From Candidatus Azobacteroides sp. (GTDB lineage Bacteria > Bacteroidota > Bacteroidia > Bacteroidales > Azobacteroidaceae), in contig WRFZ01000164.1 of NCBI GenBank assembly GCA_009778655.1, positions 1 to 32,127 of the forward strand: a stretch of 32,127 nt of DNA, read 5' to 3'. Positions 13,212 to 26,454 of the stretch are shown in pieces. A model generated the notes under the pieces. That model was not told where the DNA came from. It made no database searches and was given only the letters and a program-made list of their open reading frames with translations. Each line of letters opens with the position of its first letter. Within the stretch, counting starts at the first letter, position 1. Made by a program: the position numbers and the translations under genes.

Positions 13212-13873
13212 TTACTTCTCTTCCACTCGTATCTTTTCCACTTGCCGGATGATTTTTCCGTCGCTTGTTAATCCTTCTATAACTACGGAGTACGTTGTTT
13301 TGAAGTCGGAAGTGTAAAATTCAAAACCTGCGTCTTCGCCACCGGAAATAACAAGATCGGGTTTCCAGAAGATGGTAGTACGGTAATCGGGTACGGTTGA
13401 ATGATCGGATTCCGATGTTTCATATCGGGGCGAATAAAATTCCACTGGTTTTTGATAGCCCAAAGGAGTGTATATCGCAAAATCGGTTGTCTTCTTTCCG
13501 CTGAAATTCGTTACCTGCCGTATATCTATTCCCTTTCTCGTGGTGATACTGATTGCCCCGTTGGCGCCGCGTGCGCCGAATACCGATGCGGAAGCTCCTT
13601 TGAAAACATCGAAATCATCCGCCGCCGTTTTCTCCTCTTTATTTTCTTTACCTATCCGGATATTTTTCTTGAAGAAGTAATCATCGCCCGAATTTTCCAT
13701 ATACCGGGTATAGGCGCGAAGCGTATAATTACCTTCCGGAAAAGGTTTTCTCCCAGTACGGTATTCCGGAAAAAATTGATGTCTTTTTTTCGAAAATGAA
13801 CTTTTTCTACCACCACCACTTCGTTCAATTCGTTGATACGCAAGGCCGCATTAAAAGTCACAAAAAAAGTCAC
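13212..13873 (-). pseudogene. Remnant of an MG2/TonB-plug (SusC-like) protein gene
   Basis: Pieces of a larger Bacteroidota protein, normally around 800 residues with macroglobulin-like (MG2) repeats followed by a TonB-receptor plug. One frame near the left of the minus strand reads LNEVVVVEKVHFRKKD, the classic sequence before a SusC plug. Another frame then reads FPEGNYTLRAYTRYMENSGDDYFFKKNI, an MG2-repeat motif that should lie upstream of the plug. This runs, after a short linker, into VFKGASASVFGARGANGAIS, the end of the plug, and finishes as a beta-rich C-terminal domain at 13212. Frames are out of order and a large middle part is missing, so internal deletions and a frameshift seem to have occurred. 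The last 162 codons form an open frame that could still be translated, but without a signal peptide. Confidence 0.6.
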
Positions 13874-13957: not shown

Positions 13958-15283
13958 TTATCGTTTGATCTGCTTCATAATATCGTAATAAAACCGCTCC
14001 AACAAACGCAAATCTTTGGTGACGATTTCCGCCTCTCCCCGTAAACCGTCCCGATACATGATTTCTTTTCCGTAATCGGTTCGCAGTCCGTTTTGTAAAG
14101 CGACTTTGGCAAAATACCCGGTATCGGTTGCAACATTGGAAATAAACGACAGGTTACCGCAAACGGCTCCGTATTCTTGAAAAGGATAAGAAGAAAACTT
14201 TAACAGCACTTTTTGTCCGACGGCAACTTTCCCGAAATTGGCTTGAGGTATAACCAATTGGGCAAAATACAAGGTGTTTTCGGGATTAACGTAGCAAACG
14301 GTTTGATTGCTCTGCAATTGTTGATTTTCCTGTATAAGACCGGCAAAGGTTACTTTACCGTCCGTGGGAGCGGTCAGCAAGTATTTCTTTTCCCACTCAT
14401 CAATCTGACTTTTTAAGGTATTGAGCGCCTGTCGGAAAATCATTTTTTGCTGTACAATCGTATTATCCAACTCCGCTATCTCTTTTTGTTTTGCGTTTTG
14501 GTCCGATTCATTGCCGATAACGGCATTGTTGATTTGCGGTAAACTCAATTTTTTATTGAGAAACTTGCTTTTTTCGTCGTTATAGTCCAATTCCGACAAA
14601 ACTTTCTTATCTCTCAACGTTTGGTTGGCATTAAACGATTTTTCCGACAATTCCACATCCTGTTCTTCCAGCTCTTTTTGACTCAACAGATTCGCATGCA
14701 ATTTTTCCAAATTATCCATATCTTTCAATAACATGCTCTTTTTTCGCAGATAAAATCCATCGGAGAGGTAACTTGTAAAAGTCAAAAACGCTTGCGAAAA
14801 AGTCTGATAAGGAACTTGGAGTTCACCCAATCGGGTTTCGGACAGGTTGAAAAACCGCCCTATTTCTTCCGGATGATTGGTATTGAGTAAATCCCGGATG
14901 GAATCCGTGTTGGCCGCCAGTTGCAATACTTCGTCATGATTGGCGGTTGATTCCAAATAGCCCAACACTTGATTTTGTTTCACCGCATCGTTTTCAGAGA
15001 CAAAAAGCCGTATCAGTTTGGCATTGATAGTTGTTACGACCGGTTTGGGAGCGTTAACAGAAGTCAAAGTCGCTTCTGCCGTGACAATGTCCGGATATTT
15101 GATAATCCAACAAATAACGCCCGTAATCAACAGAAAGAAGAAAAAACAAAGCGTTCCCCAACGAATAATCCAAGGCGGACGTTGAGATATAATCTCTTCC
15201 ACTTCACCCCCGTAGTCGGAAAAGGTGTTTTTCAGAAGAACTTTTGTTTCATCCGATTGCCGTATAACAGGTTCAGTTTCCAA
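13958..15283 (-). CDS. HlyD-family membrane fusion protein of the peptide exporter
   Basis: Periplasmic adaptor of 441 residues that connects an ABC exporter in the inner membrane to an outer-membrane channel. A short cytoplasmic tail is followed by one helix at about 42-61 (WGTLCFFFFLLITGVICWII). Then comes the first half of the lipoyl-like domain (TLTSVNAPKPVVTTINAKLI), a long coiled coil at about 160-300 (YLRKKSMLLKDMDNLEKLHA and on), the second lipoyl half (LTAPTDGKVTFAGLIQENQQL) and a beta-barrel region (VIPQANFGKVAVGQKVLLKF). Its start overlaps the end of the C39 ABC transporter by 11 bp, so translation is probably coupled and the two form one machine. The outer-membrane channel gene is not in the window, so a TolC homologue elsewhere is presumably used. 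Confidence 0.92.
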   Translation of the reverse strand: METEPVIRQSDETKVLLKNTFSDYGGEVEEIISQRPPWIIRWGTLCFFFFLLITGVICWIIKYPDIVTAEATLTSVNAPKPVVTTINAKLIRLFVSENDAVKQNQVLGYLESTANHDEVLQLAANTDSIRDLLNTNHPEEIGRFFNLSETRLGELQVPYQTFSQAFLTFTSYLSDGFYLRKKSMLLKDMDNLEKLHANLLSQKELEEQDVELSEKSFNANQTLRDKKVLSELDYNDEKSKFLNKKLSLPQINNAVIGNESDQNAKQKEIAELDNTIVQQKMIFRQALNTLKSQIDEWEKKYLLTAPTDGKVTFAGLIQENQQLQSNQTVCYVNPENTLYFAQLVIPQANFGKVAVGQKVLLKFSSYPFQEYGAVCGNLSFISNVATDTGYFAKVALQNGLRTDYGKEIMYRDGLRGEAEIVTKDLRLLERFYYDIMKQIKR

Positions 15284-17504
15284 GTTCCAATTGATTTTTT
15301 ACCAGTTCGTAATATTTTCCCTTCAGAGCGATAAGTTCCGAATGCGTCCCTTCTTCCGCGATTTCGCCGTTGTCCATGACCAAAATATGATCGGCATTTT
15401 TTACCGTACTCAGCCGATGCGCCACCACGACCACCGTTTTGTCTTCAAAAAAACTTTGCAGGTTTTCCAAAATCACTTTCTCGTTGCTTGCATCCAACGA
15501 ATTGGTGGCTTCGTCGAAAAAGAGGAATTTCGGATTTTTATAAACGGCTCGCGCAATGGCGATGCGCTGTTTTTGTCCGCCGCTGATTCCCGTTCCCTCG
15601 GCTCCTAATCGGGTATAAAAACCCAAGGGTAACGATTCGATAAACGGCAAAATATTGGCGATTTCACAGGCATGCATCAATTGTTCCGTATTCACTTGCT
15701 CATCGGTAACGGTAATGTTTTTATGAATCGTTGCATTGAAAATAAAACTTTCCTGCATCACGCTGCCGCTCACGCTTCGCCAAAATTTGGGACTGATGGT
15801 TTTGAAATTGGCATTGCCGATATAAATATCTCCTTTATACGAATCGTAAAACCGTAATAACAATTTAACCAAAGTGGTTTTACCGCTTCCGCTCATCCCC
15901 ACGACGGCGGTTACTTTTCCTTCGGGAATCACGATATTGATATTTTTCAATACCAGCTCGTTACCGGCGCCCGGATAAGTAAACGAAAGATTTTTGATTC
16001 GGATGGATTGTTGCGCGGGGAGATAATGATTGAATTGTTTATGCAAAGGTTCTTCATCTTCCAAAGAATGAATGTCGTTCAAACGCTCCAAACTGATTTT
16101 GGCATCCTGCGCCTGTTGAGTAAATCCGATGAATTGTTCCACCGGAGCATTTAATTGGCCGATAATGTATTGAACGGCGAGCATGGCGCCCAAAGTCAGT
16201 TTCCCTTCGATGACCAAGCTTGCCGTGATAAAAGTGATCAGAATATTTTTACCTTGATTAATAAAAAAAGCGCCGATTTGTTGATATTGATTCAACGACA
16301 ATCGGGTAAAACTCAACTTGAACAGACGCGCTTGAAGTCCTTCCCAAGCCCAACGGTAGGTGCTTTCCGCATTGTTGAGTTTGATCTCCTGCATACCATA
16401 AATCAGTTGCATGGTGGCGTTGTTTTCGCGGGAAGAAATATCGAAACTTTTATAATCCAATTGTCGTCTGTATTTGAGAAAGATACGGATCCAGAATACA
16501 TACAGTACGCTGCCGACCGCAAAGATGACAAAAACGGTTACATTGTAATTCAACAGGACGACAGAAAAAAGAATAAGATTGATAAGACTGAAAAAAGTGT
16601 TAAGGGAAGTTCCGGTGAGAAAGCTTTCGATACGGTGATGATCGCCGACCCGTTGGATAATATCGCCCGGATGTTTACTGTCGAAAAACTGCATCGGAAG
16701 CCGCAGGAGTTTGGTCCAGAATCCCGACAACAGCGAAAGATTAATCCGGGTACTAACATAAAGCAAAATACGGCTTCGAATAAATTCCACGACGGTTTGG
16801 GAAAAAAGCAGCATCAATTGCGCCGCCAACACAATTTGAATAAAATTGAGATTTTGAGTGTTGATCCCCATATCAACAATGCTTTGAGTAAGGTAGGGAA
16901 ATATCAGTTGCAATACGCTGCCAATAAGGATGCCGATAAAGAGTTGAAAAACAAAGGATTTATTTTCATTCAAATAGCCGAACAAAAAACTCCAATTCAA
17001 GGCGGCCGGTTTTTCTTCTTCTCCCGACCAGAAATCCGTTTCTTTGAAACGGGGAGTCGGTTCCAGCAAAAGCGCGATTCCCTTTCCCTTATCTTTTTCG
17101 GTCGTAGAAACCCAATGTTTTTCAAATTCTTCCCGGTCGAGCGTTATCAATCCTGCCGCAGGATCGGCGATATAGAACTTATTCTCGTCATTTTTAATTC
17201 GCCATCTCCTTTGCTTATTGATTTTATACAGCACCACAAAATGCCCTTGATTCCAATGAATAACGGCGGGCAACAACGCATCGTTCATCAGTTGTTCCAT
17301 GGTAAGTTTTGCTCCGACTGCTCGAAATCCAATGCTCTCGGCAGCTTCCGCCACCCCCAGCAACGAGACTCCCGTTTTCCCGTATTGCGATTTTTCACGC
17401 AGGTAATCCAGCGAAACGGTACGTCCGTGGTACTTGGCAATCATGCGCAGACAAGCGGGGCCGCAGTCCATGGCGTCGAGTTGGGGGTAGTAGGGAAAGT
17501 TCAT
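15273..17504 (-). CDS. C39 peptidase-containing ABC exporter (bacteriocin type)
   Basis: Inner-membrane exporter of 743 residues that cuts double-glycine leaders and exports the core peptide. The N-terminal C39 protease is intact: Gln8, Cys14 (DAMDCGPACLRM), His88 (NQGHFVVLYK) and Asp114 (YIADPAAG) are the expected catalytic set. A six-helix membrane domain occupies about 165-460. The ATPase domain has Walker A GMSGSGKTT, the signature ISGGQKQRIAIA, Walker B FLFFDEATNSLD and the switch His in VVVAHRLSTVKNADH. The length is typical of PCAT transporters. It sits at the end of the minus-strand cluster containing a double-glycine precursor (22513-22710), which is its obvious substrate, and overlaps the HlyD gene. 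An open frame on the other strand is only its mirror. Confidence 0.95.
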   Translation of the reverse strand: MNFPYYPQLDAMDCGPACLRMIAKYHGRTVSLDYLREKSQYGKTGVSLLGVAEAAESIGFRAVGAKLTMEQLMNDALLPAVIHWNQGHFVVLYKINKQRRWRIKNDENKFYIADPAAGLITLDREEFEKHWVSTTEKDKGKGIALLLEPTPRFKETDFWSGEEEKPAALNWSFLFGYLNENKSFVFQLFIGILIGSVLQLIFPYLTQSIVDMGINTQNLNFIQIVLAAQLMLLFSQTVVEFIRSRILLYVSTRINLSLLSGFWTKLLRLPMQFFDSKHPGDIIQRVGDHHRIESFLTGTSLNTFFSLINLILFSVVLLNYNVTVFVIFAVGSVLYVFWIRIFLKYRRQLDYKSFDISSRENNATMQLIYGMQEIKLNNAESTYRWAWEGLQARLFKLSFTRLSLNQYQQIGAFFINQGKNILITFITASLVIEGKLTLGAMLAVQYIIGQLNAPVEQFIGFTQQAQDAKISLERLNDIHSLEDEEPLHKQFNHYLPAQQSIRIKNLSFTYPGAGNELVLKNINIVIPEGKVTAVVGMSGSGKTTLVKLLLRFYDSYKGDIYIGNANFKTISPKFWRSVSGSVMQESFIFNATIHKNITVTDEQVNTEQLMHACEIANILPFIESLPLGFYTRLGAEGTGISGGQKQRIAIARAVYKNPKFLFFDEATNSLDASNEKVILENLQSFFEDKTVVVVAHRLSTVKNADHILVMDNGEIAEEGTHSELIALKGKYYELVKNQLELGN

Positions 17505-17562
17505 TCTTTATATGTGCGATTATATTCTATAGACATATTTTTTATTTATATAAATTTCGACA

Positions 17563-19479
17563 TTACAATAAATTAATCCATTGCCGGTTGTGATTTTGCA
17601 AAAATAACAAAAACAAACCTTCGGTAATGATTCCATTGAGCAGAGAAGGCTTACTTTCTAAATTGATCTTAATATCTTCGGGATGAAAAATTATTGATGA
17701 ACCGAAATATTTCGAATTTAACTGTTCCCTAATATATTTTCCTGTTTCACCTTCCAAGTAGCCGAATTTTAGGGAAATTTTTTCTATCCGATATTTTATA
17801 TTTTTTCTGTCCAAAATTTTTTCCACGTAAGCAGAATACTGTGGAAACTGTTTCATGTCGTACAAAGAACGGTAAATGTCCGTAATTTCATTATCCGATA
17901 CATTTTCCGGAATATTTGAATCAACAATCTGTAAAATATGATCCAAAGCTTCTACTATTAATGTATTTTTATCATTTTGCATTATATTGGTATTATTCTG
18001 TAATCGAAATGTCCAATAACGCGCCAATCCCATGTATCCGTTAAGAAGGCTGAAATTTGAAACGGGAGTATCAAATGTAGCCTTATAAATTAAATCATCA
18101 CATTCTGCCAAAATATCATTGGTGTTGTTATCAATAAACCGGTTCTGTGCCAGATATTCAAATCCGGTTCCTATGCCTGCCAACCCATTTTCATAATAAA
18201 CCGGAATATTATAGTTGATCATGTATCTGATTTCCTCGATTAACTGCATGGCATAATTTTCATATAAATCGTTACCTGTAAATTGATAATAGTGGAAAAA
18301 GAAGATTACCTTTCCCATTTTTCCGTACAGCAATCCGAGATCATTGTTAACGGTATTGTCAATCATGAGATTTTGAATAATTCTTTCCACGGGTGTTTTT
18401 GCTGATAAGGTATGATACAACAGGTTATTTATTTTATTCAGATTTTTTTGAATATTAAAAAAGTTCGTCCTTGAGCCGTTCTTAGCTTTACGGGCATACA
18501 AAGTTCTTAACGATTCATTACTTATCATTTCTTTTAAACCGTTGTAAACGGCGTCATCATCCGTATCAACCAATATCCCATATTTCCCGTGAGCCAATAA
18601 ATCCGTTACCCCTGAAACTCTCGTTGCAACAATCGGTTTGCCTAAACACAAAGCTTCACCGACAACAAGAGAAAATCCTTCGGCAAAAGAAACCGATACA
18701 AAAACATCCGATGCCCGGAGCCATGGATAAGGATTTTTTTGAAACCCCAACAGATAAACAGCATCCTCCAAATTAAACTCTTTTATGAGATTTTGAACTA
18801 GATTATGCAGTTCTCCTTCGCCTATAATCCAAAAACAGAAGTCGAATCCATCATTTTTTAGTCTATTTAGAATTGGGATTAAGCGAGTGTAGCCCTTTAT
18901 AGGCGTTAGGCGTCCGATACTGCATAACGTCAGCTTTTCCTTTTTTTTACATGGGATTACTTTGAGCTTGGATTTTTGTATAATATTTTTTTTATTCAAT
19001 AAATTATATATAACCTGTTTTTTTGTCGTAACTTTCGGAAACAACCTCTCAAATTGTTGCATGGTTGAGTGTGAAACAAATATAATACGATCCACCATAT
19101 TATAACATAATGTTTCTTCATGAATGTCATAATATGAAGATCCTGTCCAATGTACGGTATATAAATCACTATGTACCCATGCAATTTTAATGGCGTCGGT
19201 CTGACGTAACGCAATAAATTTCGTTGATTCTCCTTCTAAAAAAGCAACTTCAACATCATAGTTTTTGGATGGTAAAGAGAGAGCGTCTTCATAAATAAAA
19301 TATTTTACGGAATCGGGAATATCATTAAAATATACTCCGACATTTTTTAATACACACAAATCTATATCAAAGTATTCATAATTGATTCTATGCAAAATAT
19401 CAATTAACAATTTTTCAGCTCCTCCACCGGTTAGTGTCTCAATACAGAAAAGTACGGACCGTTTTTTGATTTTATCCAT
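17563..19479 (-). CDS. GT4 glycosyltransferase fused to a LanC-like domain
   Basis: Two-domain cytoplasmic protein of 638 residues. Residues about 1-360 are a GT-B fold glycosyltransferase of family 4: ETLTGGGAEKLLIDIL near the start, SIGRLTPIKGYTRLIPIL, and the donor-binding E-x7-E motif with Glu267 and Glu275 (FAEGFSLVVGEALCLGKPIV). Residues about 380-638 resemble the alpha/alpha toroid of lanthionine cyclases: LYGKMGKVIFFFHYY, YYENGLAGIGTGFEYLAQ, FSLLNGYMGLARYW and a closing SLLNGIITEGLFLLFLQNHN. The zinc ligands of true LanC (Cys and Cys-His) are not visible, so cyclisation is unlikely; the domain may hold the peptide. The gene sits between the exporter and other maturation genes. Inferred role: attaching a sugar to the precursor. 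Lower GC than the housekeeping genes suggests transfer. Confidence 0.72.
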   Translation of the reverse strand: MDKIKKRSVLFCIETLTGGGAEKLLIDILHRINYEYFDIDLCVLKNVGVYFNDIPDSVKYFIYEDALSLPSKNYDVEVAFLEGESTKFIALRQTDAIKIAWVHSDLYTVHWTGSSYYDIHEETLCYNMVDRIIFVSHSTMQQFERLFPKVTTKKQVIYNLLNKKNIIQKSKLKVIPCKKKEKLTLCSIGRLTPIKGYTRLIPILNRLKNDGFDFCFWIIGEGELHNLVQNLIKEFNLEDAVYLLGFQKNPYPWLRASDVFVSVSFAEGFSLVVGEALCLGKPIVATRVSGVTDLLAHGKYGILVDTDDDAVYNGLKEMISNESLRTLYARKAKNGSRTNFFNIQKNLNKINNLLYHTLSAKTPVERIIQNLMIDNTVNNDLGLLYGKMGKVIFFFHYYQFTGNDLYENYAMQLIEEIRYMINYNIPVYYENGLAGIGTGFEYLAQNRFIDNNTNDILAECDDLIYKATFDTPVSNFSLLNGYMGLARYWTFRLQNNTNIMQNDKNTLIVEALDHILQIVDSNIPENVSDNEITDIYRSLYDMKQFPQYSAYVEKILDRKNIKYRIEKISLKFGYLEGETGKYIREQLNSKYFGSSIIFHPEDIKINLESKPSLLNGIITEGLFLLFLQNHNRQWINLL

Positions 19480-19512
19480 GATTACAAATTTTTTAATCTT
19501 TTCCGGTGAATC

Positions 19513-20325
19513 TTATTGTCTGTTATACCGAATATTCATTAATTTCAGTATCATTAATTGTTGTAAAGTATTTAAACCAAGAATTTTACAAATGGATGCG
19601 CAAAAGTATTGATAATCGTGGAACTTGAGTAAAACTTTTGCTCCGTTTAACCACTTTATTAATTCCGGCGAATATTCGTTTACGTTCTCATTTATATAGG
19701 ATTCTATAGTTTCACTGATTTCTTCGATATCTATTTTATCTTTAATCAGTTCATTAATGATATTAATTTCAATATCAACAGATATCTCATGAAGGGTTTG
19801 CGATAAGACATTTTTTTGCTTGTCGCCATCTATACAAGATAATCCTTTTGTTAACAAATAAATACCAAGAGATAAAATGGAATCTGCTGAAAAATCATCT
19901 CCGGTTAATTTCAAAATTAAATCGGTGGTCTGTTGATGAAAGCAAATGCATTGCTCCGAATAATCCGGTAATATAAATTTATTCCAAGTTAATGAGTTAT
20001 TCGGAAAATTACCCCAAACGGTTTTATCAAAAGAAAGTTTATTTTTCTCGACAGAAGGATTTTGATTGACAAACAATTGAAAATGGTTTTGAATATCGTA
20101 GAGATAATTGTCGGCATTTAAAAGTGAAACAAAAGTTACATTTATATTATCTTCAGAAAAAGAAAGTAAGCAATTACAAAATTGATTGGGACGCTTTTGA
20201 TAATAACGAATAATTTGAGTAATAAGTGTAATCCAACTTTCTCTTGCATAAAATATAGAGAGAAAATACCAACGCTTTTCATTCAAGATAAGTGGTGTCG
20301 GTAATAATTTGCCTACATATTTCAT
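19513..20325 (-). CDS. Possible SpaB_C/thiopeptide-type maturation protein
   Basis: Protein of 270 residues that I recognise only tentatively. Near the N-terminus RWYFLSIFYARESWITLITQ and, 25 residues later, LLSFSEDNINVTFVSLL follow the pattern of the lantibiotic-dehydratase C-terminal (SpaB_C, thiopeptide-type) domain, where a Trp-aromatic strand precedes a long helix and an F/Y-x-D-x-N/H strand. Later ICFHQQTTDLILKLTGDD and SLGIYLLTKGLSC match the helical half. The large dehydratase part of LanB is absent here and nowhere else in the window, so dehydration chemistry cannot be assumed; this domain alone might eliminate or simply bind the peptide. It overlaps the upstream glycosyltransferase gene by 4 bp (ATGA) and is followed by the GT4-LanC gene, so it clearly belongs to the operon. 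It is AT-rich and has no signal peptide. Confidence 0.45.
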   Translation of the reverse strand: MKYVGKLLPTPLILNEKRWYFLSIFYARESWITLITQIIRYYQKRPNQFCNCLLSFSEDNINVTFVSLLNADNYLYDIQNHFQLFVNQNPSVEKNKLSFDKTVWGNFPNNSLTWNKFILPDYSEQCICFHQQTTDLILKLTGDDFSADSILSLGIYLLTKGLSCIDGDKQKNVLSQTLHEISVDIEINIINELIKDKIDIEEISETIESYINENVNEYSPELIKWLNGAKVLLKFHDYQYFCASICKILGLNTLQQLMILKLMNIRYNRQ

Positions 20326-21176
20326 AATTCATCGCTATTTTTAATTCCATATATTTTCTTCTTCCCGATTCGAAATTTATCGGGAATTATTTTATGTAAA
20401 TCAATCGGTTCCGAATATTTTAGTTTAAATCGCACCAAATGATAAAGCATGGCTTCAAATTGTTTCCGGTAAATCAACGTTCCTTTATTCCACAGCATAT
20501 TACCGGCAAAACCTTCCACGATTTGAAATTCAAAATAGGCTTTCAGTTTGTTTTCTTCCTGCAATCGCCGCACGACATGCGTCATACTTTCCACTTCCGT
20601 TCGGATTTGGCTGTAATGCACACCTTTTCCGAATGCTTTGAAAGCAAAATTGGTTTCGTCGAAATAAAAATTACGAGGTTCGGTAAAGACCTTTTTGTAA
20701 TCTCTGCTTTGCATGAATAATTCCCGCATTTCCGTATTGTTCCGATACAAAGCGAAACAGCCGGTCAGATAGTCGTGACGGGCGCTGATAATATCGTATT
20801 CATCCAACAACTCATCAGTCATAAACGCACGGATATTCCCGAAAATAACATCTATATCGCAATAACCCCAAAAATCATAATCTTTGATATAATCATAAAA
20901 AATATATCCGAAAGCCGGTCTGAAATCGCATAATTTATATCCCGATTCTACTGCGACCTCAAACCCTAATGCTTTAATGGCATCAGCTTTAAAATGTTCA
21001 ATCGAATAGGGAATGACTTTTACATTGACAGGTAAATCAAGTTTTGCATCCGTGTTGTCCGTAAAAATAAGAAAATCAACAGTTGGGTTGTACCGGCAGG
21101 AATGAAGGAAATAGGGGAAATACCATGGGTAATCACCTAAAAAAACAATGATGAAAGCTATTTTGTCTGGTTTCAT
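20322..21176 (-). CDS. DUF6625-like glycosyltransferase
   Basis: Soluble protein of 284 residues resembling the DUF6625 glycosyltransferase group (GT-A-like fold). Characteristic text: IAFIIVFLGDYPWYFPYFL at the N-terminus, KLCDFRPAFGYIFYDYI, then DYDFWGYCDIDVIFGNIRAF, where Asp107-x-Asp109 is the DxD metal/nucleotide-sugar motif. ARHDYLTGCFALYRN and NFYFDETNFAFKAFG follow, as expected for the acceptor side. The start MKPDKIAFIIVF begins directly with the first strand. It is the second glycosyltransferase of the peptide cluster and is translationally coupled (ATGA overlap) to the SpaB_C-like gene. Its substrate may be the precursor or a sugar already placed by the GT4 enzyme; neither can be told from the sequence. 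Confidence 0.75.
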   Translation of the reverse strand: MKPDKIAFIIVFLGDYPWYFPYFLHSCRYNPTVDFLIFTDNTDAKLDLPVNVKVIPYSIEHFKADAIKALGFEVAVESGYKLCDFRPAFGYIFYDYIKDYDFWGYCDIDVIFGNIRAFMTDELLDEYDIISARHDYLTGCFALYRNNTEMRELFMQSRDYKKVFTEPRNFYFDETNFAFKAFGKGVHYSQIRTEVESMTHVVRRLQEENKLKAYFEFQIVEGFAGNMLWNKGTLIYRKQFEAMLYHLVRFKLKYSEPIDLHKIIPDKFRIGKKKIYGIKNSDEL

Positions 21177-21211
21177 ATCTGCATAAATCCGTATTCATTT
21201 TGAAATTTATA

Positions 21212-22369
21212 TTATTGCTTACCCGCAATTTTATACAATTTTTTTAAATCCGCATCGTATCGCACTTCTATTTCCTCATACTTACCGTCAGGATAAACCA
21301 TTAATACCGTTGGAAAACCGGGATAATTGAAAAATTGTTGCTTTATTTCTTCTAAATTGTATGCTGCCAATACGCTGCGCCAAGTGATTTCCTTGTCAAT
21401 CATCAACTTTTTCCAAGCACCAACCGTAGTCGTTTCGTCCATCGAAATGTAAACCATTGCAACTTTATTTCCCAATTCTTCGGCAATCTTTTTTAAAAGC
21501 GGAATTTCGGCAATACAGGGCTTACACCATGATGCGGAAAATATAACCAAATTTATCTTTGAAAAATCTTTTATTATCGGTTCCTGCTTTTCGGTATCCC
21601 ACGCAGGCAACAAGGTGTTTCTAAAATAAGAAACAGTATCAGACAAGAACTCCTGTATTCCTATGCCGTAATAGGATTGTTTTTGTTTGTCGGAAAAATT
21701 ATCGTAAATTTTTTGTATATTATCTTTTACGTGATATTGTCTTTTCAAGCCGTACAACTTGCTTATCAATGAATGAGAATTAGGATATTTTTGCACAGTT
21801 TTTTCAAATTGATTAATTATCTCATCATAATCCTCATCCAGAACATCCGTAATAAAAAAGCGATTAGCGGCCGATTCAACGGATGATAAATATTCTTTGT
21901 CGGTTATATCGTTCAAAAAATAAACATCATCCAACTCCACCGGGTTCATATCCGAAATCGTCCTTGTTTCTATTTTTAGGCCGGCATTAATAATAGCAAT
22001 ATCAACATCGTCGAACACATATTGCCGTGCCGTTAACGTATCATTGTCGATGATTTGCCTAAAAGATATACTATGCAGAATTGTGTCATTATGAGTAGGT
22101 ATAAAAAAACGAAAAGAAGTACATTTTTCATATAAACTCCGAGGATACTCAAATATCCACGAATTATCATTTAATAAGCCTGAAAAACGAAAAAAACTGT
22201 CCGGACCACATCTGATTGTTAATATCAGTTCTTCATATTCATTTTTCCCAAAGTTTAGGCGAACAACATTTGTATCTCTTTCCTGCGAATGATTTGTAAA
22301 ACAAGGATAGGCGCCTATTAAAACGGGTATGAAAAATACCGACAATAAAAATAACTTCCTTTTTCGCAT
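21212..22369 (-). CDS. TlpA-like thioredoxin-fold protein, exported
   Basis: Envelope thiol-disulfide oxidoreductase of 385 residues. The start I choose (ATG at 22367-22369) gives MRKRKLFLLSVFFIPVLIGA, a good signal or anchor sequence; an upstream ATG at 22414 would put a poor 15-residue extension in front. A beta-rich domain of about 200 residues, similar to the N-terminal part of Bacteroidota TlpA/DUF4369-type proteins, is followed by a TlpA thioredoxin domain: VIFSASWCKPCIAEIPLLKK with the active-site Cys282-x-x-Cys285, VAMVYISMDE and the cis-proline loop YPGFPTVLMVYPDG. It follows the precursor gene directly, after a hairpin, so it is probably dedicated to reducing or isomerising disulfides of the exported peptide. 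Confidence 0.82.
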   Translation of the reverse strand: MRKRKLFLLSVFFIPVLIGAYPCFTNHSQERDTNVVRLNFGKNEYEELILTIRCGPDSFFRFSGLLNDNSWIFEYPRSLYEKCTSFRFFIPTHNDTILHSISFRQIIDNDTLTARQYVFDDVDIAIINAGLKIETRTISDMNPVELDDVYFLNDITDKEYLSSVESAANRFFITDVLDEDYDEIINQFEKTVQKYPNSHSLISKLYGLKRQYHVKDNIQKIYDNFSDKQKQSYYGIGIQEFLSDTVSYFRNTLLPAWDTEKQEPIIKDFSKINLVIFSASWCKPCIAEIPLLKKIAEELGNKVAMVYISMDETTTVGAWKKLMIDKEITWRSVLAAYNLEEIKQQFFNYPGFPTVLMVYPDGKYEEIEVRYDADLKKLYKIAGKQ

Positions 22370-22465
22370 GATTGTAATTGTACAATTATTATGAAGTATG
22401 TTGTTGGGTATCAAAAATAAAAATAATATGCCGAATAAAACATATAAAGAATTAACAATAGAAAA

Positions 22466-22507
22466 TAGAAGATGTTCGCATAATTAAAAAAATGAGAACA
22501 TCTTCTA
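22466..22507 (-). terminator. Strong hairpin directly after the precursor gene (partial terminator or mRNA stabiliser)
   Basis: TAGAAGATGTTC (22466-22477) and GAACATCTTCTA (22496-22507) form a perfect 12-bp inverted repeat with an 18-nt loop. On the minus strand the stem starts 5 nt after the precursor stop codon and is followed only by TTTTC. It probably lets part of the transcripts read on into the maturation genes while protecting the precursor mRNA. Confidence 0.65.
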
Positions 22508-22512
22508 ATCAA

Positions 22513-22710
22513 TCAGATGCTCCTCTTTTGGCAAGTACAACTCTTATTGTTGTCGTCGGGTCGACAAGAACCCTCTATATCGCCATAGTAACACAGAGTA
22601 ATCTTGTTACATGCACCAGTACTGCACGTAACACCACTACCTCCCAAGACATTCTTGAGCTCTTCTTCGCTTAGGATTTCAGAAATCCCTCTTAAATTAA
22701 TCTTTTTCAT
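22513..22710 (-). CDS. Double-glycine leader precursor peptide, Cys-rich core
   Basis: Precursor of 65 residues of the Bacteroidales double-glycine type (TIGR04149-like). The leader MKKINLRGISEILSEEELKN followed by VLGG is the recognition pattern for C39 exporters; cleavage is expected after Gly24. The core SGVTCSTGACNKITLCYYGD (and 21 more residues) is 41 long and hydrophilic, with six cysteines at positions 29, 34, 40, 49, 58 and 60. The even count fits three disulfides, or two plus modified cysteines. Ser and Thr residues offer O-glycosylation sites, but no site is proven. It is the only such precursor I found here, next to the thioredoxin and VKOR-type genes. The mature peptide may be an antimicrobial or a signal. 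It has its own likely promoter. Confidence 0.88.
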   Translation of the reverse strand: MKKINLRGISEILSEEELKNVLGGSGVTCSTGACNKITLCYYGDIEGSCRPDDNNKSCTCQKRSI

Positions 22711-22828
22711 ACAAAAAAACAGTTTAAAATTTAATAACTAAAAATAATTAACACGTTTTTGTTGCTTTTTACAATCGTTGATCGGACGACTGCTCCCTGC
22801 CTGCAACACGGCAAGGATTATTTAACAT

Positions 22829-22860
22829 CAACATTAAATTCATTTTTATTTTACGACAAA
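22829..22860 (-). promoter_or_regulatory. Likely promoter of the precursor gene
   Basis: On the minus strand TTTG (22860-22857) is followed after 20 bp by TAATGTTG (22836-22829), one mismatch from TAnnTTTG. The leader would be about 110 nt. The stretch 22711-22936 has no gene; 22783-22816 is markedly GC-richer than its surroundings and can form small stems, for example TGCC/GGCA. Confidence 0.45.
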
Positions 22861-22892
22861 AGATTTATAGAATTAAGAAGATAGAAACAGAT

Positions 22893-22917
22893 AAAAAAGA
22901 CATTTAAACACGTCTTT
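22893..22917 (-). terminator. Terminator of the VKOR-fusion gene
   Basis: On the minus strand AAAGAC (22917-22912) pairs with GTCTTT (22901-22896) over a 10-nt loop, and the T-run continues to 22893 (TTTTTT in total). It lies 20 bp after the stop at 22937, so the precursor probably starts a new transcript. Confidence 0.55.
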
Positions 22918-22936
22918 ATACCTTTGTCTGTTTTTT

Positions 22937-24520
22937 TCAATCTTTGATCTTTGATCTTTCAAAATATTTTAAATCCTCAATTTTATAATTATCCGGCAAC
23001 TTGTATCCGTTCACCAAAATCGTAGGCGTTGCTCGTAACTGCGTTTTTTCTCTCCACGCTTCATGCTTTTGAAACTCGGTTTCAATCTCCGGATTATTCA
23101 TATTCAAATGCAAGTCATTGAAAAACGCTTCTTTTAACGGTTTGCCTTTTTCGAACCAATCGGCAATAATACGTTCAAATTCGCTTTGTTCGTTTTCCAA
23201 ATAAGCAGCAATCAACTGTTTATTGGCAAATTCCAAATCGGGACTGAAGGAAGAAAAAATATATTGAATACAAATATTCCGCTTGGTATCTTTCAGTATT
23301 TTTTCCACTCTTTTGTGCATTTTTGCACACGGATTGCAAAAAGGATTGGTGAGAACGGTTATTTTCAACAAAGCGTCCGGATTCCCGAAAAGAATTTGCG
23401 AATCGGCTTTGCTCACTTCATAAACCGGTTGCCGGCTGAGCAATGTTTTGAAAACTTCTTCATTGGCTTTGATGGAATTGATTTCCTGTTTCACCTTTTC
23501 AATCTCATTTCCTCTACTAAGGGTTGGGATTAAAAGATTGAAGCCGAAAATTAAAACGGCATACGTACAACCTATTAATAAAATATCCTTTAGAATAATA
23601 GCAGAATAAAGTTCCGGCGTCCGAATGTATCCGAATATACAGTCGAGAATGAAAACAGTCCACAATAAAATCTGTACAATCAAGCAAAGCGGACACCATT
23701 GCCGAGCTTTCACTTTCTGATACCATACGCTCCAGAAACTGTAAGGAAGCGTGAAAATATTGATTACAGCTAAAAGAGAAACCGTATGCGGTAAAAAGAG
23801 TAACAATAAGACATTAGCGGAGAAATAGCCCAATCCGATTTCGCTCCAGCCGAAAACGCCCCACAATTTGGCCGCTTCCGATTCCAACACATTGTTACAA
23901 TCGCTTTTGCTGAACAACGAACATATTTTATCGGCATATTGACTGCCAATATGCATCTGTTTCAATACCAATAAGTATCCGATATAAACGCCTATCAAAT
24001 TGATTATTAAAAGAAGATTGATTCCTAAATCGGTAAACAAAGAATTACTGATATAAGCCAAACCAAAAATCAGAACTCCGGCTGAAATTAAGATTGATTT
24101 CTGAGCAATGTTGAACCGTTCTTTTTTTCGATGTTCCGGATAATCCGGTTCTCCGGAATCGGGCGTAGTTTCGGCTAAAAGAATAACGCCCGACCATCCT
24201 CGGATAAATTGCGAAACGGGAATGGTTATTTTTTTACCGTTCCAAAAACAGTGAACGTTATCGGGTTCCACTTTATCTACCGCAACAAAATCACTGCCGT
24301 AATGAGCAATAAAAGGACATTCGATATTAAAAAGGTCTTTTTCCTTGTCTGCAATTCGGGTTCCAACATTCTCAATCCCATAATCGGACAACATTTTGGA
24401 AAGTCCGAACAAATTGTACTTGTGCGGATGCTCGTTGAAATATCGGTTTGAAAAATCATTGGTATGTTTTACCTTTAATAAATCTAAAAATGTAACGAAT
24501 GTGTTTTGCCGGTTTTTCAT
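22937..24520 (-). CDS. C39-like / VKOR / DsbA-like fusion thiol oxidase
   Basis: Inner-membrane protein of 527 residues with three parts. Residues 1-125 resemble a C39 peptidase-like domain (PFIAHYGSDFVAVDKVEPDN, WSGVILLAETTP), but the catalytic cysteine near the N-terminus is absent, so it cannot cut and may instead bind the leader. Residues about 140-330 are a VKOR quinone-linked oxidase: four or five helices, Cys200-x7-Cys208 (KICSLFSKSDCNN) and the CPLC redox pair at 276-279. Residues about 365-527 form a DsbA/thioredoxin-like domain with Cys395-x-x-Cys398 (TNPFCNPCAKMHK) and RATPTILVNGYKLP. VKOR-Trx fusions pass electrons from substrate thiols to quinone, so this makes disulfides. It should oxidise the six-cysteine peptide encoded next to it. 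ATG at 24520 has a consensus promoter upstream. Confidence 0.88.
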   Translation of the reverse strand: MKNRQNTFVTFLDLLKVKHTNDFSNRYFNEHPHKYNLFGLSKMLSDYGIENVGTRIADKEKDLFNIECPFIAHYGSDFVAVDKVEPDNVHCFWNGKKITIPVSQFIRGWSGVILLAETTPDSGEPDYPEHRKKERFNIAQKSILISAGVLIFGLAYISNSLFTDLGINLLLIINLIGVYIGYLLVLKQMHIGSQYADKICSLFSKSDCNNVLESEAAKLWGVFGWSEIGLGYFSANVLLLLFLPHTVSLLAVINIFTLPYSFWSVWYQKVKARQWCPLCLIVQILLWTVFILDCIFGYIRTPELYSAIILKDILLIGCTYAVLIFGFNLLIPTLSRGNEIEKVKQEINSIKANEEVFKTLLSRQPVYEVSKADSQILFGNPDALLKITVLTNPFCNPCAKMHKRVEKILKDTKRNICIQYIFSSFSPDLEFANKQLIAAYLENEQSEFERIIADWFEKGKPLKEAFFNDLHLNMNNPEIETEFQKHEAWREKTQLRATPTILVNGYKLPDNYKIEDLKYFERSKIKD

Positions 24521-24925: not shown

Positions 24926-25855
24926 ATGCAATTTTTAGAACGGTCTCTTGATCAACAAAATCAATTTTGGAAATATTTGATAGTCGTTTTGGCCGCTTTC
25001 TTCGGCGGACAAATTCTCGGCGCGATCCCCTTGGCAAGCGTAATGATATATAAAGTCATTACAAGTGGCGGAGCTTTTGTCTCGAATCCTAAAAATCTTA
25101 CAGATTTAACCGCATTCGGCATCTCAAAAAACGTATCCTTATTTTTATTTATGCTTATTCCGGTTGTATTTTTACTTATTACAATTCTGTTAATCAAAGT
25201 ATTACACAAAAGATCATTTGCGGAAACCGTCAATGGTACGCAAAAAGTGCGAATCAAGCGTTGCTTGACCGGAGCGGCCGTATGGAGCTTTTTGATGGCC
25301 ATCTATTATTGGGGAGATTATATGATGAATCCGGAAAATTACCGTTTGCAATTCAATCTTTTAGCATTTATTCCTTTATTACTCATTTCTGTTATACTGA
25401 TCCCGATCCAAACCACCTCCGAAGAGTTTTTTTTCAGGGGATATCTTTCGCAAGGATTTGCCGGATGGACGAAAAACCGTTGGTTGGCCATTCTTATTCC
25501 CGGATTGTTATTCGGATTAACGCATAGCGCTAATCCGGAAGTAAAAGAATTCGGATTTTGGGTATCAATGTCGCAATACGTCTTTTTCGGATTATTGTTC
25601 GGGTTGGTATCGGTATTGGACGACGGCATTGAATTAGCGATGGGAATGCATGCCGCAAACAATGTATTCTTATCTTTGTTCGTTACGAATTATGCCTCTG
25701 CACTTCAAACAGATGCCGTATTCGAAGAACTTCATATTGTACCCGTCAAGGAAACGATCAGCCTTATAATTATAGGAATGATTACTCTTGCTTTTTTTGC
25801 ATGGAAATATCAATGGAATTTCAAAATTCTTAATCAAAAAATTATAAAATTATGA
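24926..25855 (+). CDS. CPBP-family intramembrane metalloprotease
   Basis: Polytopic membrane protein of 309 residues of the CPBP/Abi (Rce1-like) family, with about eight helices. The three family motifs are intact: Glu166-Glu167 and Arg171 in TTSEEFFFRGYL, His200 in GLTHSANP, and HAANNVF near residue 243. These residues bind the metal and water for peptide hydrolysis within the membrane. In Gram-positive bacteria such proteins often serve as bacteriocin immunity factors or process peptides; here the gene is divergent from the peptide cluster, about 400 bp away, so a link is possible but unproven. It overlaps the next gene by 4 bp (ATGA), so both belong to one operon. Confidence 0.88.
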   Translation: MQFLERSLDQQNQFWKYLIVVLAAFFGGQILGAIPLASVMIYKVITSGGAFVSNPKNLTDLTAFGISKNVSLFLFMLIPVVFLLITILLIKVLHKRSFAETVNGTQKVRIKRCLTGAAVWSFLMAIYYWGDYMMNPENYRLQFNLLAFIPLLLISVILIPIQTTSEEFFFRGYLSQGFAGWTKNRWLAILIPGLLFGLTHSANPEVKEFGFWVSMSQYVFFGLLFGLVSVLDDGIELAMGMHAANNVFLSLFVTNYASALQTDAVFEELHIVPVKETISLIIIGMITLAFFAWKYQWNFKILNQKIIKL

Positions 25856-26454
25856 ACAAATTAATTATTATCGGGTTATTAACCCTTGGAAGCGTATCCT
25901 GTTTCGCTCAGGATATTCAGTTGCCTTCACCGAACAGAACCGGCGGAAAGCCGCTGATGGATGCTTTGAATGAACGTCAAAGCAATCGGGATTTTTCAGA
26001 TAAAGAATTAAGTATGCAGACTCTATCCGATTTGTTATGGGCTGCTTACGGATTTAACCGCGAGACGAAACGAACGGTACCGTCTTCGCAAGACCGACAG
26101 GAAATAGACTTGTATGTTTTCTTGAAAACCGGCGTTTATTTCTACGATGCCAAGAATCAACAACTGATTCTGAAAATACAGGGTGATTATCGGGCGAAAA
26201 CCGGAGTACAGCCTTTTGTGGAAGTCGCTCCGCTCAATTTTGTATTTGTCGCCAATTTGGATAAAGCGTCCAATCGCGATGCCGCTTTAACGGATTGCGG
26301 ATTTATTGCCCAAAACATTTATCTTTTCTGTGCTTCGGAAGACTTAATAAGCGTAGTGCGAGGCTCCGTCAAAAAGGAGGAAGTTCACGATTTGTTGGGA
26401 TTGAATGAAAAACAGGAAGTTTTATTGGCGCAAACGGTAGGTTATAAACAATAA
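25852..26454 (+). CDS. Secreted SagB/ThcOx-like nitroreductase
   Basis: FMN-type nitroreductase of 200 residues with a signal peptide (MNKLIIIGLLTLGSVSCFAQ), so it acts in the periplasm. The family pattern is NERQSNRDFSDKELSMQTLS near residue 45, followed by LLWAAYGFN, and the central helix DCGFIAQNIYLFCASEDL. The sequence is closest in style to the SagB/ThcOx branch, whose cytoplasmic members oxidise azolines in thiazole/oxazole peptides; secreted, stand-alone versions are common in Bacteroidota and have no known substrate. No YcaO or cyclodehydratase gene is present, so azole chemistry should not be assumed. It is translationally coupled to the CPBP protease. Its stop codon touches the poly-A that forms the end of the convergent RNA gene. 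Confidence 0.82.
   Translation: MNKLIIIGLLTLGSVSCFAQDIQLPSPNRTGGKPLMDALNERQSNRDFSDKELSMQTLSDLLWAAYGFNRETKRTVPSSQDRQEIDLYVFLKTGVYFYDAKNQQLILKIQGDYRAKTGVQPFVEVAPLNFVFVANLDKASNRDAALTDCGFIAQNIYLFCASEDLISVVRGSVKKEEVHDLLGLNEKQEVLLAQTVGYKQ

Follow-up and report, generated by a model that had tools for sequence, protein, structure and literature searches.

A Bacteroidota operon predicted to make and export a glycosylated, disulfide-bonded peptide

What does a bacterium make when the gene for a double-glycine peptide shares an operon with two glycosyltransferases (GTs), two thiol oxidoreductases and a peptidase-bearing exporter? The question is raised by eight minus-strand genes at positions 13958 to 24520 of contig WRFZ01000164.1 from Candidatus Azobacteroides sp., analysed here as a stretch of 32,127 nucleotides that we call the window. 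Our analysis suggests that this operon probably directs the biosynthesis and export of a small glycosylated, disulfide-bonded peptide in a Bacteroidota bacterium, and that the product is most likely an antibacterial or signalling peptide. The pathway is real and recurring; its chassis is ordinary, and the combination is new.

All eight open reading frames (ORFs) lie where an earlier, sequence-only reading had placed them, and the identities it gave to the HlyD protein, the C39 exporter, the GT4 plus LanC-like protein, the DUF6625 protein, the thioredoxin and the VKOR-DsbA fusion were each matched by Pfam or NCBIfam profiles. The features are as follows.

22937..24520, minus strand: fusion of VKOR and a DsbA-like thioredoxin, 527 residues, with an N-terminal C39-like domain (Pfam)
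22513..22710, minus strand: precursor peptide gene, 65 residues (TIGR04149)
22639..22710, minus strand: double-glycine leader, 24 residues, ending in GG (sequence)
22516..22638, minus strand: core peptide, 41 residues, six cysteines (sequence)
21212..22414, minus strand: TlpA-type thioredoxin with a CKPC motif and an N-terminal transmembrane (TM) or signal segment (profile)
20322..21176, minus strand: DUF6625 protein, a GT-A-fold glycosyltransferase with a conserved DxD (D107, D109) (Pfam)
19513..20325, minus strand: 270-residue protein, called "SpaB_C-like" in the sequence-only reading (no family match)
18403..19479, minus strand: GT4 domain of the fusion protein encoded at 17563-19479 (PF00534, 96.6 bits)
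17563..18402, minus strand: zinc-less LanC-like domain of the same fusion protein (LANC_like, 28.9 bits)
15273..17504, minus strand: C39 peptidase-containing ATP-binding cassette (ABC) exporter (Peptidase_C39, 113 bits, and ABC domains)
13958..15283, minus strand: HlyD membrane-fusion protein (HlyD_3, 40.8 bits)

The HlyD and exporter genes overlap by 11 bp and the genes for the 270-residue and DUF6625 proteins by 4 bp, and three other gaps within the operon measure 33 to 58 bp. The precursor gene lies 98 bp from the TlpA gene and 226 bp from the VKOR gene, and the TlpA-type ORF contains an in-frame ATG at 22369.

The operon recurs, beyond chance, with its shared genes in the same order in a second genome of the same taxonomic order, G144 (G-numbers denote genomes and L-numbers loci; G000 is the window's own genome). 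There the sequence runs VKOR, precursor, TlpA, two GTs, 270-residue protein, exporter and HlyD, with identities to the window proteins of 85% for the exporter, 75% for HlyD, 67% for VKOR and 63% for TlpA, and of 72% for the precursor over 29 residues (the first 29, on the leader side). The GT slot is filled differently: a DUF6734 protein and a Glyco_transf_7C protein replace the DUF6625 and GT4-LanC proteins, and the two sets share no significant similarity. That the DUF6734 protein is a GT is a guess from its company only; its residues 288-507 gave no significant match. A chassis that is kept while its GTs are replaced is the pattern expected if the GTs act on the peptide.

Wider sampling of VKOR loci detected a GT at 6 of 41: the window, G144, G257, G337, L207 and L219. 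In G257 the order is VKOR, a six-cysteine precursor, TlpA, exporter, HlyD, GT, LanC-like protein and GT2, while the G337 stretch encodes a DUF6734 protein, a Gly_transf_sug GT, VKOR, a polysaccharide pyruvyl transferase and three long cysteine-rich proteins. A Gly_transf_sug protein lies between precursor and VKOR at L207, and a DUF6734 protein does so at L219, a locus that would leave the count if DUF6734 were not a GT. In a VKOR tree of 34 rows, the window, G144, G337 and G257 form one clade (100/98), and the GT label changes three times, a number as low as this occurring in 0 of 500 shuffles. GTs at the VKOR loci, as at the LanC loci described below, were detected by phmmer with our own GT queries and verified in part by Pfam.

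The 41 loci comprise the window, L019, 19 loci from a first VKOR search and 20 from a second. The first search gave 26 places, of which 22 are covered (19 stretches, the window, G144, and L049 inside one of the stretches) and four, L042, L043, L044 and L050, were omitted as short or weak. From the 41 places of the second search, which favours relatives of the four GT-linked VKORs underlying its model, 20 stretches were taken and G487 (151.8 bits) was left out, the remaining places being weak or within stretches already taken. L068, one of the 41 loci, has only a C39-like match. The tree omits L053, L055, L057, L068, L069, L209 and L215, which have no VKOR ORF longer than 430 residues and scoring above 85 bits, and L219 is flagged on it as a long branch of unsure place. 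Family-centred searches around G144, G257 and G337 (3, 3 and 12 genomes, respectively) returned no further full-length VKOR. As an observation in its own right, L051:8107-11074 encodes three long cysteine-rich proteins (139-198 residues) beside VKOR and GTs, with no GG leader, and the C-terminal six-cysteine spacing of the first resembles, by eye, that of the window core.

The double-glycine precursor, its 41-residue core and its six core cysteines, all described in the sequence-only reading, are borne out. The precursor belongs to the TIGR04149 leader family, scoring 29.3 bits (28.6 in a second search) against a curated cutoff of 25, in a match that spans residues 1-36, chiefly the leader. 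Together with the overall gene content, this match points to a Bacteroidota host, probably one of the Bacteroidales. The core cysteines stand at positions 5, 10, 16, 24, 33 and 35 (spacings 4-5-7-8-1), and the computed monoisotopic mass of the core is 4389.92 when linear and 4383.87 with three disulfides; a single sugar on the disulfide-bonded form would raise it to 4545.93 (hexose) or 4586.95 (HexNAc). Precursor homologues occur at L019 and L052, and GGS and three cysteines are invariant across the three sequences. Other double-glycine peptides came to light in the survey: the window's own genome holds a second TIGR04149 peptide at L023 (G000:C181:54062-54193 and flanks), adjoining a protein that resembles, by eye, a retropepsin-type aspartyl protease, and at L112:13350-15153 a double-glycine peptide lies next to a retropepsin-type aspartyl protease recognised by a Pfam match.

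Among 60 precursors at VKOR loci (28 of the 41), 58 have an even number of cysteines, namely four (19), six (31) or eight (8); the odd ones are at L217 (seven) and L068 (five). These precursors were found with a leader model built from 16 seeds chosen by eye (12 of them from VKOR loci, 4 from LanC loci) out of lists filtered for at least two cysteines. We attach no probability to the parity because the loci are related, so that the precursors are not independent, and because of the choice of seeds by eye. The leader rule missed the precursors of L052 and L219, both of which have six cysteines, that of L219 having AG instead of GG. Such parity is hard to explain other than by cysteine pairing, and the disulfide-bonded product proposed from the sequence gains support from it, the bonds themselves being predicted. 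Since the cores of the window, G144 and G257 have six cysteines each, pairing would leave no cysteine spare for a sugar, which makes O-linkage to serine or threonine more likely than S-linkage of the sublancin type. O-linked glycocins exist, as enterocin F4-9 illustrates (PMC8620827). A separate pattern search showed that L212:214-8474 holds fourteen different double-glycine, cysteine-rich peptide ORFs beside one VKOR and one exporter.

The VKOR protein, with five TM-like segments, joins VKOR (cysteines 200, 208, 276 and 279) to a DsbA-like Thioredoxin_4 domain (CNPC at 395-398) and likely forms disulfides in the periplasm. Its N-terminal C39-like domain, absent from the earlier reading, matches only profile positions 44-131 of 133. 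The catalytic cysteine of C39 lies in the first third of the profile, so that this domain is without the part that carries it; it may bind the leader. TlpA keeps its CxxC and has one TM-like segment at its N terminus.

Neither GT protein has a TM-like segment. The GT4 domain is Glycos_transf_1, its relatives in the PDB include Cps3D and TarM, and it is fused to a LANC_like domain that scores above the cutoff of 23.2 bits but covers only profile positions 5-139 of 350. This domain lacks the zinc triad C..CHG, and a cyclase role was rejected on that ground. The DUF6625 protein (222 bits) has the GT-A fold and DxD of a glycosyltransferase, although a PDB sequence search gave no significant relative. 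A GT of the SunS family (TIGR04195) reached the cutoff in none of 10 genomes searched; weaker matches in eight of the 10 (in G000 three, all on contigs other than the window's) also occurred in most control genomes. The GT4 protein matched 34 families, and TIGR04195 was not one of the 25 of these that were listed; for the DUF6625 protein none was listed at all. DUF6625 was found in 8 of 149 genomes. A contig scan with the GT4-LanC protein gave 13 loci with matches ending at or before query residue 380, in the GT half only, and was not used. The sequence-only reading had looked to a neighbourhood survey to link GT4-LanC and DUF6625 to double-glycine precursors. Such linkage was borne out only loosely: these very types were seen with a double-glycine operon in the window alone, and elsewhere the GTs that recur beside VKOR and cysteine-rich precursors of the GG type belong to other, changing families, with or without a LanC-like protein.

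For the 270-residue protein, which has no TM-like segment, searches of Pfam, NCBIfam and PDB sequences gave no family match, nor did Pfam and NCBIfam for its G144 homologue. An hhalign comparison with five Lant_dehydr_C-type proteins of related genomes (three of them checked by Pfam) gave 0.2%, with two sequences only on one side, and an AlphaFold model with a predicted local distance difference test (pLDDT) score of 35.5 was too poor for fold comparison. These results gave no usable support to a SpaB_C identity, and the label was not confirmed. The protein is convincing only in the window and G144 (45-46% identity). Among 295 genomes of the order, four had a match: the window, G144, and weak C-terminal matches at L004 and L005, taken as chance since no such cluster is present in L021 and L022. 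Among 395 genomes of the phylum, only the window had one.

Is there a wider connection between zinc-less LanC-like proteins and GTs? LanC matches were found in 34 of 393 genomes of the order, and 47 loci yielded 56 LanC-like ORFs of at least 30 bits, 26 with the C..CHG triad and 30 without it. If a GT counts as linked when fused or when encoded on the same strand within 3 kb, 21 of the 30 ORFs lacking the triad have one, as does 1 of the 26 bearing it (Fisher 2e-7, kinship ignored); when 1.5-kb flanks are required, the figures are 16/21 and 1/16. Fragments of 102, 115 and 144 residues, unable to show the triad, were counted as zinc-less, and L126, where a GT2 gene lies next to LanC on the opposite strand, was not counted as linked. 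A LanB N-domain lies within 8 kb of 3 of the 30 zinc-less ORFs and of 15 of the 26 others. The only zinc-bearing LanC with a GT is at L115, where a second, zinc-less LanC sits between two GTs. Fusions of GT and LanC occur in the window (GT4) and at L111 and L117 (GT2), the LANC_like score at L117 being 18.1 bits, below the Pfam cutoff. Of 23 zinc-less LanC loci, only 5 yielded precursors by the double-glycine rule (L114, L115, L117, L121 and L137), and two more were seen by eye at L109 and L112; the GT-LanC cluster of L112 has a GG precursor with no cysteine and many serines, threonines and asparagines. The simple reading of these data is that the zinc-less LanC form serves glycosyltransferases.

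In the same survey, L117:8529-19179 and L115:7266-17396 were found to combine a GT, a zinc-less LanC, a LanB N-domain, SpaB_C, a GG peptide and a C39 exporter (domains checked by Pfam for L117 and by phmmer for L115), making these clusters candidate glyco-lanthipeptide clusters. In this order many LanC loci include LanB genes, whereas PMC10352776 reports LanB to be absent from the Bacteroidales screened.

These findings are consistent with the following pathway. The 65-residue precursor, whose gene is evident in the sequence, would be made in the cytoplasm. The GT4 of the GT4-LanC protein would place a first sugar on a serine or threonine of the core, with the zinc-less LanC-like domain holding the peptide for it, and the DUF6625 enzyme would add a second sugar or modify a second site; the 270-residue protein would assist in some way. 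The C39 exporter is expected, from its family, to cleave the leader at GG and to export the core with HlyD, after which the VKOR-DsbA fusion and TlpA would close three disulfides, as cysteine parity suggests. The order proposed, with sugar added in the cytoplasm, then export, then periplasmic disulfides, follows from the lack of TM segments in the GTs and the 270-residue protein and their presence in VKOR and TlpA. More tentatively, and with somewhat less than an even chance in our estimation, a fixed chassis of peptide, VKOR-DsbA, TlpA, exporter and HlyD takes exchangeable GT cassettes in a Gram-negative glycopeptide class, in which the zinc-less LanC-like domain has turned from a cyclase into a peptide-binding GT partner.

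Several results weigh against this pathway. At 35 of the 41 VKOR loci the search detected no GT (other GT families could be missed), so that the sugar would be an optional addition. G337 belongs to the same VKOR clade, yet the stretch read there contains no double-glycine precursor, and other DUF6625 genes lie, by eye and within 1.5 kb each way, near polysaccharide-type genes or more DUF6625. A C39 exporter lies within 8 kb of 14/30 zinc-less and 7/26 zinc-bearing LanC ORFs, a difference that is not significant (p 0.17), and in a control at 44 LanC loci 11 of 15 precursors had even cysteine counts; the control is small, so the contrast in parity is by itself weak. The peptide might be only disulfide-bonded, like the bacteroidetocins, with the two GTs serving a surface glycan and having nothing but the operon in common with it. 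In bacteroidetocin regions the peptide is accompanied by a TM protein, a thiol oxidoreductase and a transporter, and "glycosyl" appears nowhere in the main text of their description (PMC6671954). We nevertheless regard this as unlikely: the GT genes sit within the operon, after the precursor and before the exporter, and overlap or nearly touch their neighbours; other GTs fill the same place in G144; and at L207 and L219 a GT stands directly between precursor and VKOR. Modification of the producer's own surface target, as self-protection against an exported disulfide peptide, would account for the lack of an obvious immunity gene among the eight, and a change of GT family could follow a change of target. 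The GT proteins lack TM-like segments, however, GT-LanC fusions or pairs in other peptide clusters fit peptide modification better, and bacteroidetocin producers inhibit themselves and seem to be without immunity proteins (PMC6671954), making self-protection improbable.

Two further pathways find even less room. The LANC_like match of the GT4 fusion protein might suggest a class I lanthipeptide pathway built on LanC and a LanB elimination domain, the more so as genomes of the same order do contain clusters that combine a split LanB with LanC and GG peptides. We consider this very improbable, as the LanB glutamylation domain (Lant_dehydr_N) did not appear among the families listed for the eight proteins of the operon, the only part of the genome covered by that search, the LanC-like domain has no zinc triad, the 270-residue protein has no SpaB_C match, the operon encodes a disulfide oxidase, and the number of cysteines is even. 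The name of TIGR04149, a family matched by the precursor, suggests a peptide modified by radical SAM enzymes, a reading with hardly any probability: no radical SAM family is among those shown for the eight operon proteins or for six further window ORFs, and the match is chiefly to the leader. A radical SAM role was rejected on this ground.

How does the proposed glycosylated, disulfide-bonded peptide relate to known systems? Bacteroidetocins (class IIf, PMC6671954) are also from Bacteroidota and share a GG leader, even cysteines, a thiol oxidoreductase and a peptidase-bearing ABC exporter. Bacteroidetocins A and B have four cysteines, a 15-residue leader and four genes, with no GT mentioned in the text available, whereas the window operon has six cysteines, a 24-residue leader, two GTs, a LanC-like domain, TlpA and HlyD. 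The published description gives bacteroidetocins at least two cysteines, which the window core has, and a leader of 15-16 residues, from which the 24-residue leader of the window departs. Bacteroidetocin regions encode a five-TM protein, a thiol oxidoreductase and a peptidase-transporter; compared by description only, the window has oxidoreductases and an exporter, and five TM-like segments lie in the VKOR fusion itself. When the thiol oxidoreductase is deleted, bacteroidetocin activity is weakened, and reduction alters the migration of the peptides (PMC6671954), an experimental precedent for disulfides in peptides of the window type. By lineage and chassis, the window operon appears closer to these GG peptides, with a glycosylation cassette added.

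The glycocins sublancin, glycocin F, pallidocin and thermoglycocin (PMC6405829, PMC12457901) likewise combine a GG-type peptide (the thermoglycocin leader ends in GK rather than GG), a GT, thioredoxin-like and disulfide proteins and a C39 exporter. They use a SunS- or GccA-like GT and have nested disulfides, with five cysteines in those characterised before 2025, seven in thermoglycocin and eight in OrgA (PMC12457901, PMC6405829). The window operon instead has GT4-LanC and DUF6625, six cysteines in another spacing, a VKOR fusion and HlyD. Its 4-5-7-8-1 spacing is unlike the C-X6-C pairs of sublancin. The plan drawn in the sequence-only reading was right, with a GG leader, GTs, thiol oxidoreductases, C39 exporter and HlyD in one cluster, glycosylation of this peptide being a prediction; membership of the glycocin family fails on the lack of a SunS-type GT and the different cysteine plan. 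The enzymes probably differ from those of known sugar-bearing Gram-positive bacteriocins.

Within the Bacteroidales, the clusters of PMC10352776 share LanC-like proteins without the zinc motif (biosynthetic gene clusters BGC3, 4 and 5), a GT (BGC3) and GG precursors, and that work proposes an endoglucanase-like nature for LanC-like proteins. Its BAGEL4 label "GlyS" (peptide S-glycosyltransferase) occurs in 53 areas (7 radical SAM, 41 radical SAM plus LanC, 3 radical SAM plus YcaO, 2 alone), so GT matches near Bacteroidales clusters for ribosomally synthesized and post-translationally modified peptides are already in print; nearly all of these areas carry radical SAM enzymes, none of which was seen in the window operon. 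NCBIfam TIGR04157 (glyco_rSAM_CFB), a GT4-type family tied by its short name to Bacteroidota radical SAM peptide systems, scores 70.9 bits on the window GT4, which at a cutoff of 400 is not a member. A GG peptide, C39 exporter, HlyD and LanC family protein also occur together at L117, L122 and L124, which are class I lanthipeptide clusters with a split LanB from genomes of this order; unlike the window operon, they have Lant_dehydr_N and Lant_dehydr_C. The LanC of L122 and L124 keeps C..CHG, and the GT2-LanC fusion of L117 is without it. The portions of the open-licence literature consulted (including PMC4573289 and PMC13289728) showed no characterised glycosylated bacteriocin of Bacteroidota and no such gene combination.

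If the proposed pathway is correct, it would add a Gram-negative glycopeptide class with swappable GTs, useful for making new glycopeptides; it would also help to explain why zinc-less LanC-like genes recur in this order, and would give a testable role to the families of unknown function DUF6625 and perhaps DUF6734. Double-glycine precursors that have an even number of cysteines and lie next to VKOR-DsbA also point to a group of disulfide peptides in the phylum, most of them still unread.

The GT4-LanC, 270-residue, DUF6625 and TlpA genes (window 17563-22414) have a G+C content of 0.29-0.37, and the exporter, HlyD and precursor genes 0.41-0.44. The G144 operon shows the same trend, which is consistent with an imported cassette. 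Just downstream of HlyD, at window 13212-13873, short ORFs carry, by eye, a TonB-plug-like stretch across different frames and are possibly a decayed receptor gene; the ORF at 13212-13700 has no Pfam match. CPBP proteins can be bacteriocin immunity proteins, and none was noticed by eye beside the G144 operon. At window 24926-26454, adjoining the operon, lie divergent genes for a CPBP (Rce1-like) protease and a nitroreductase, which overlap by 4 bp.

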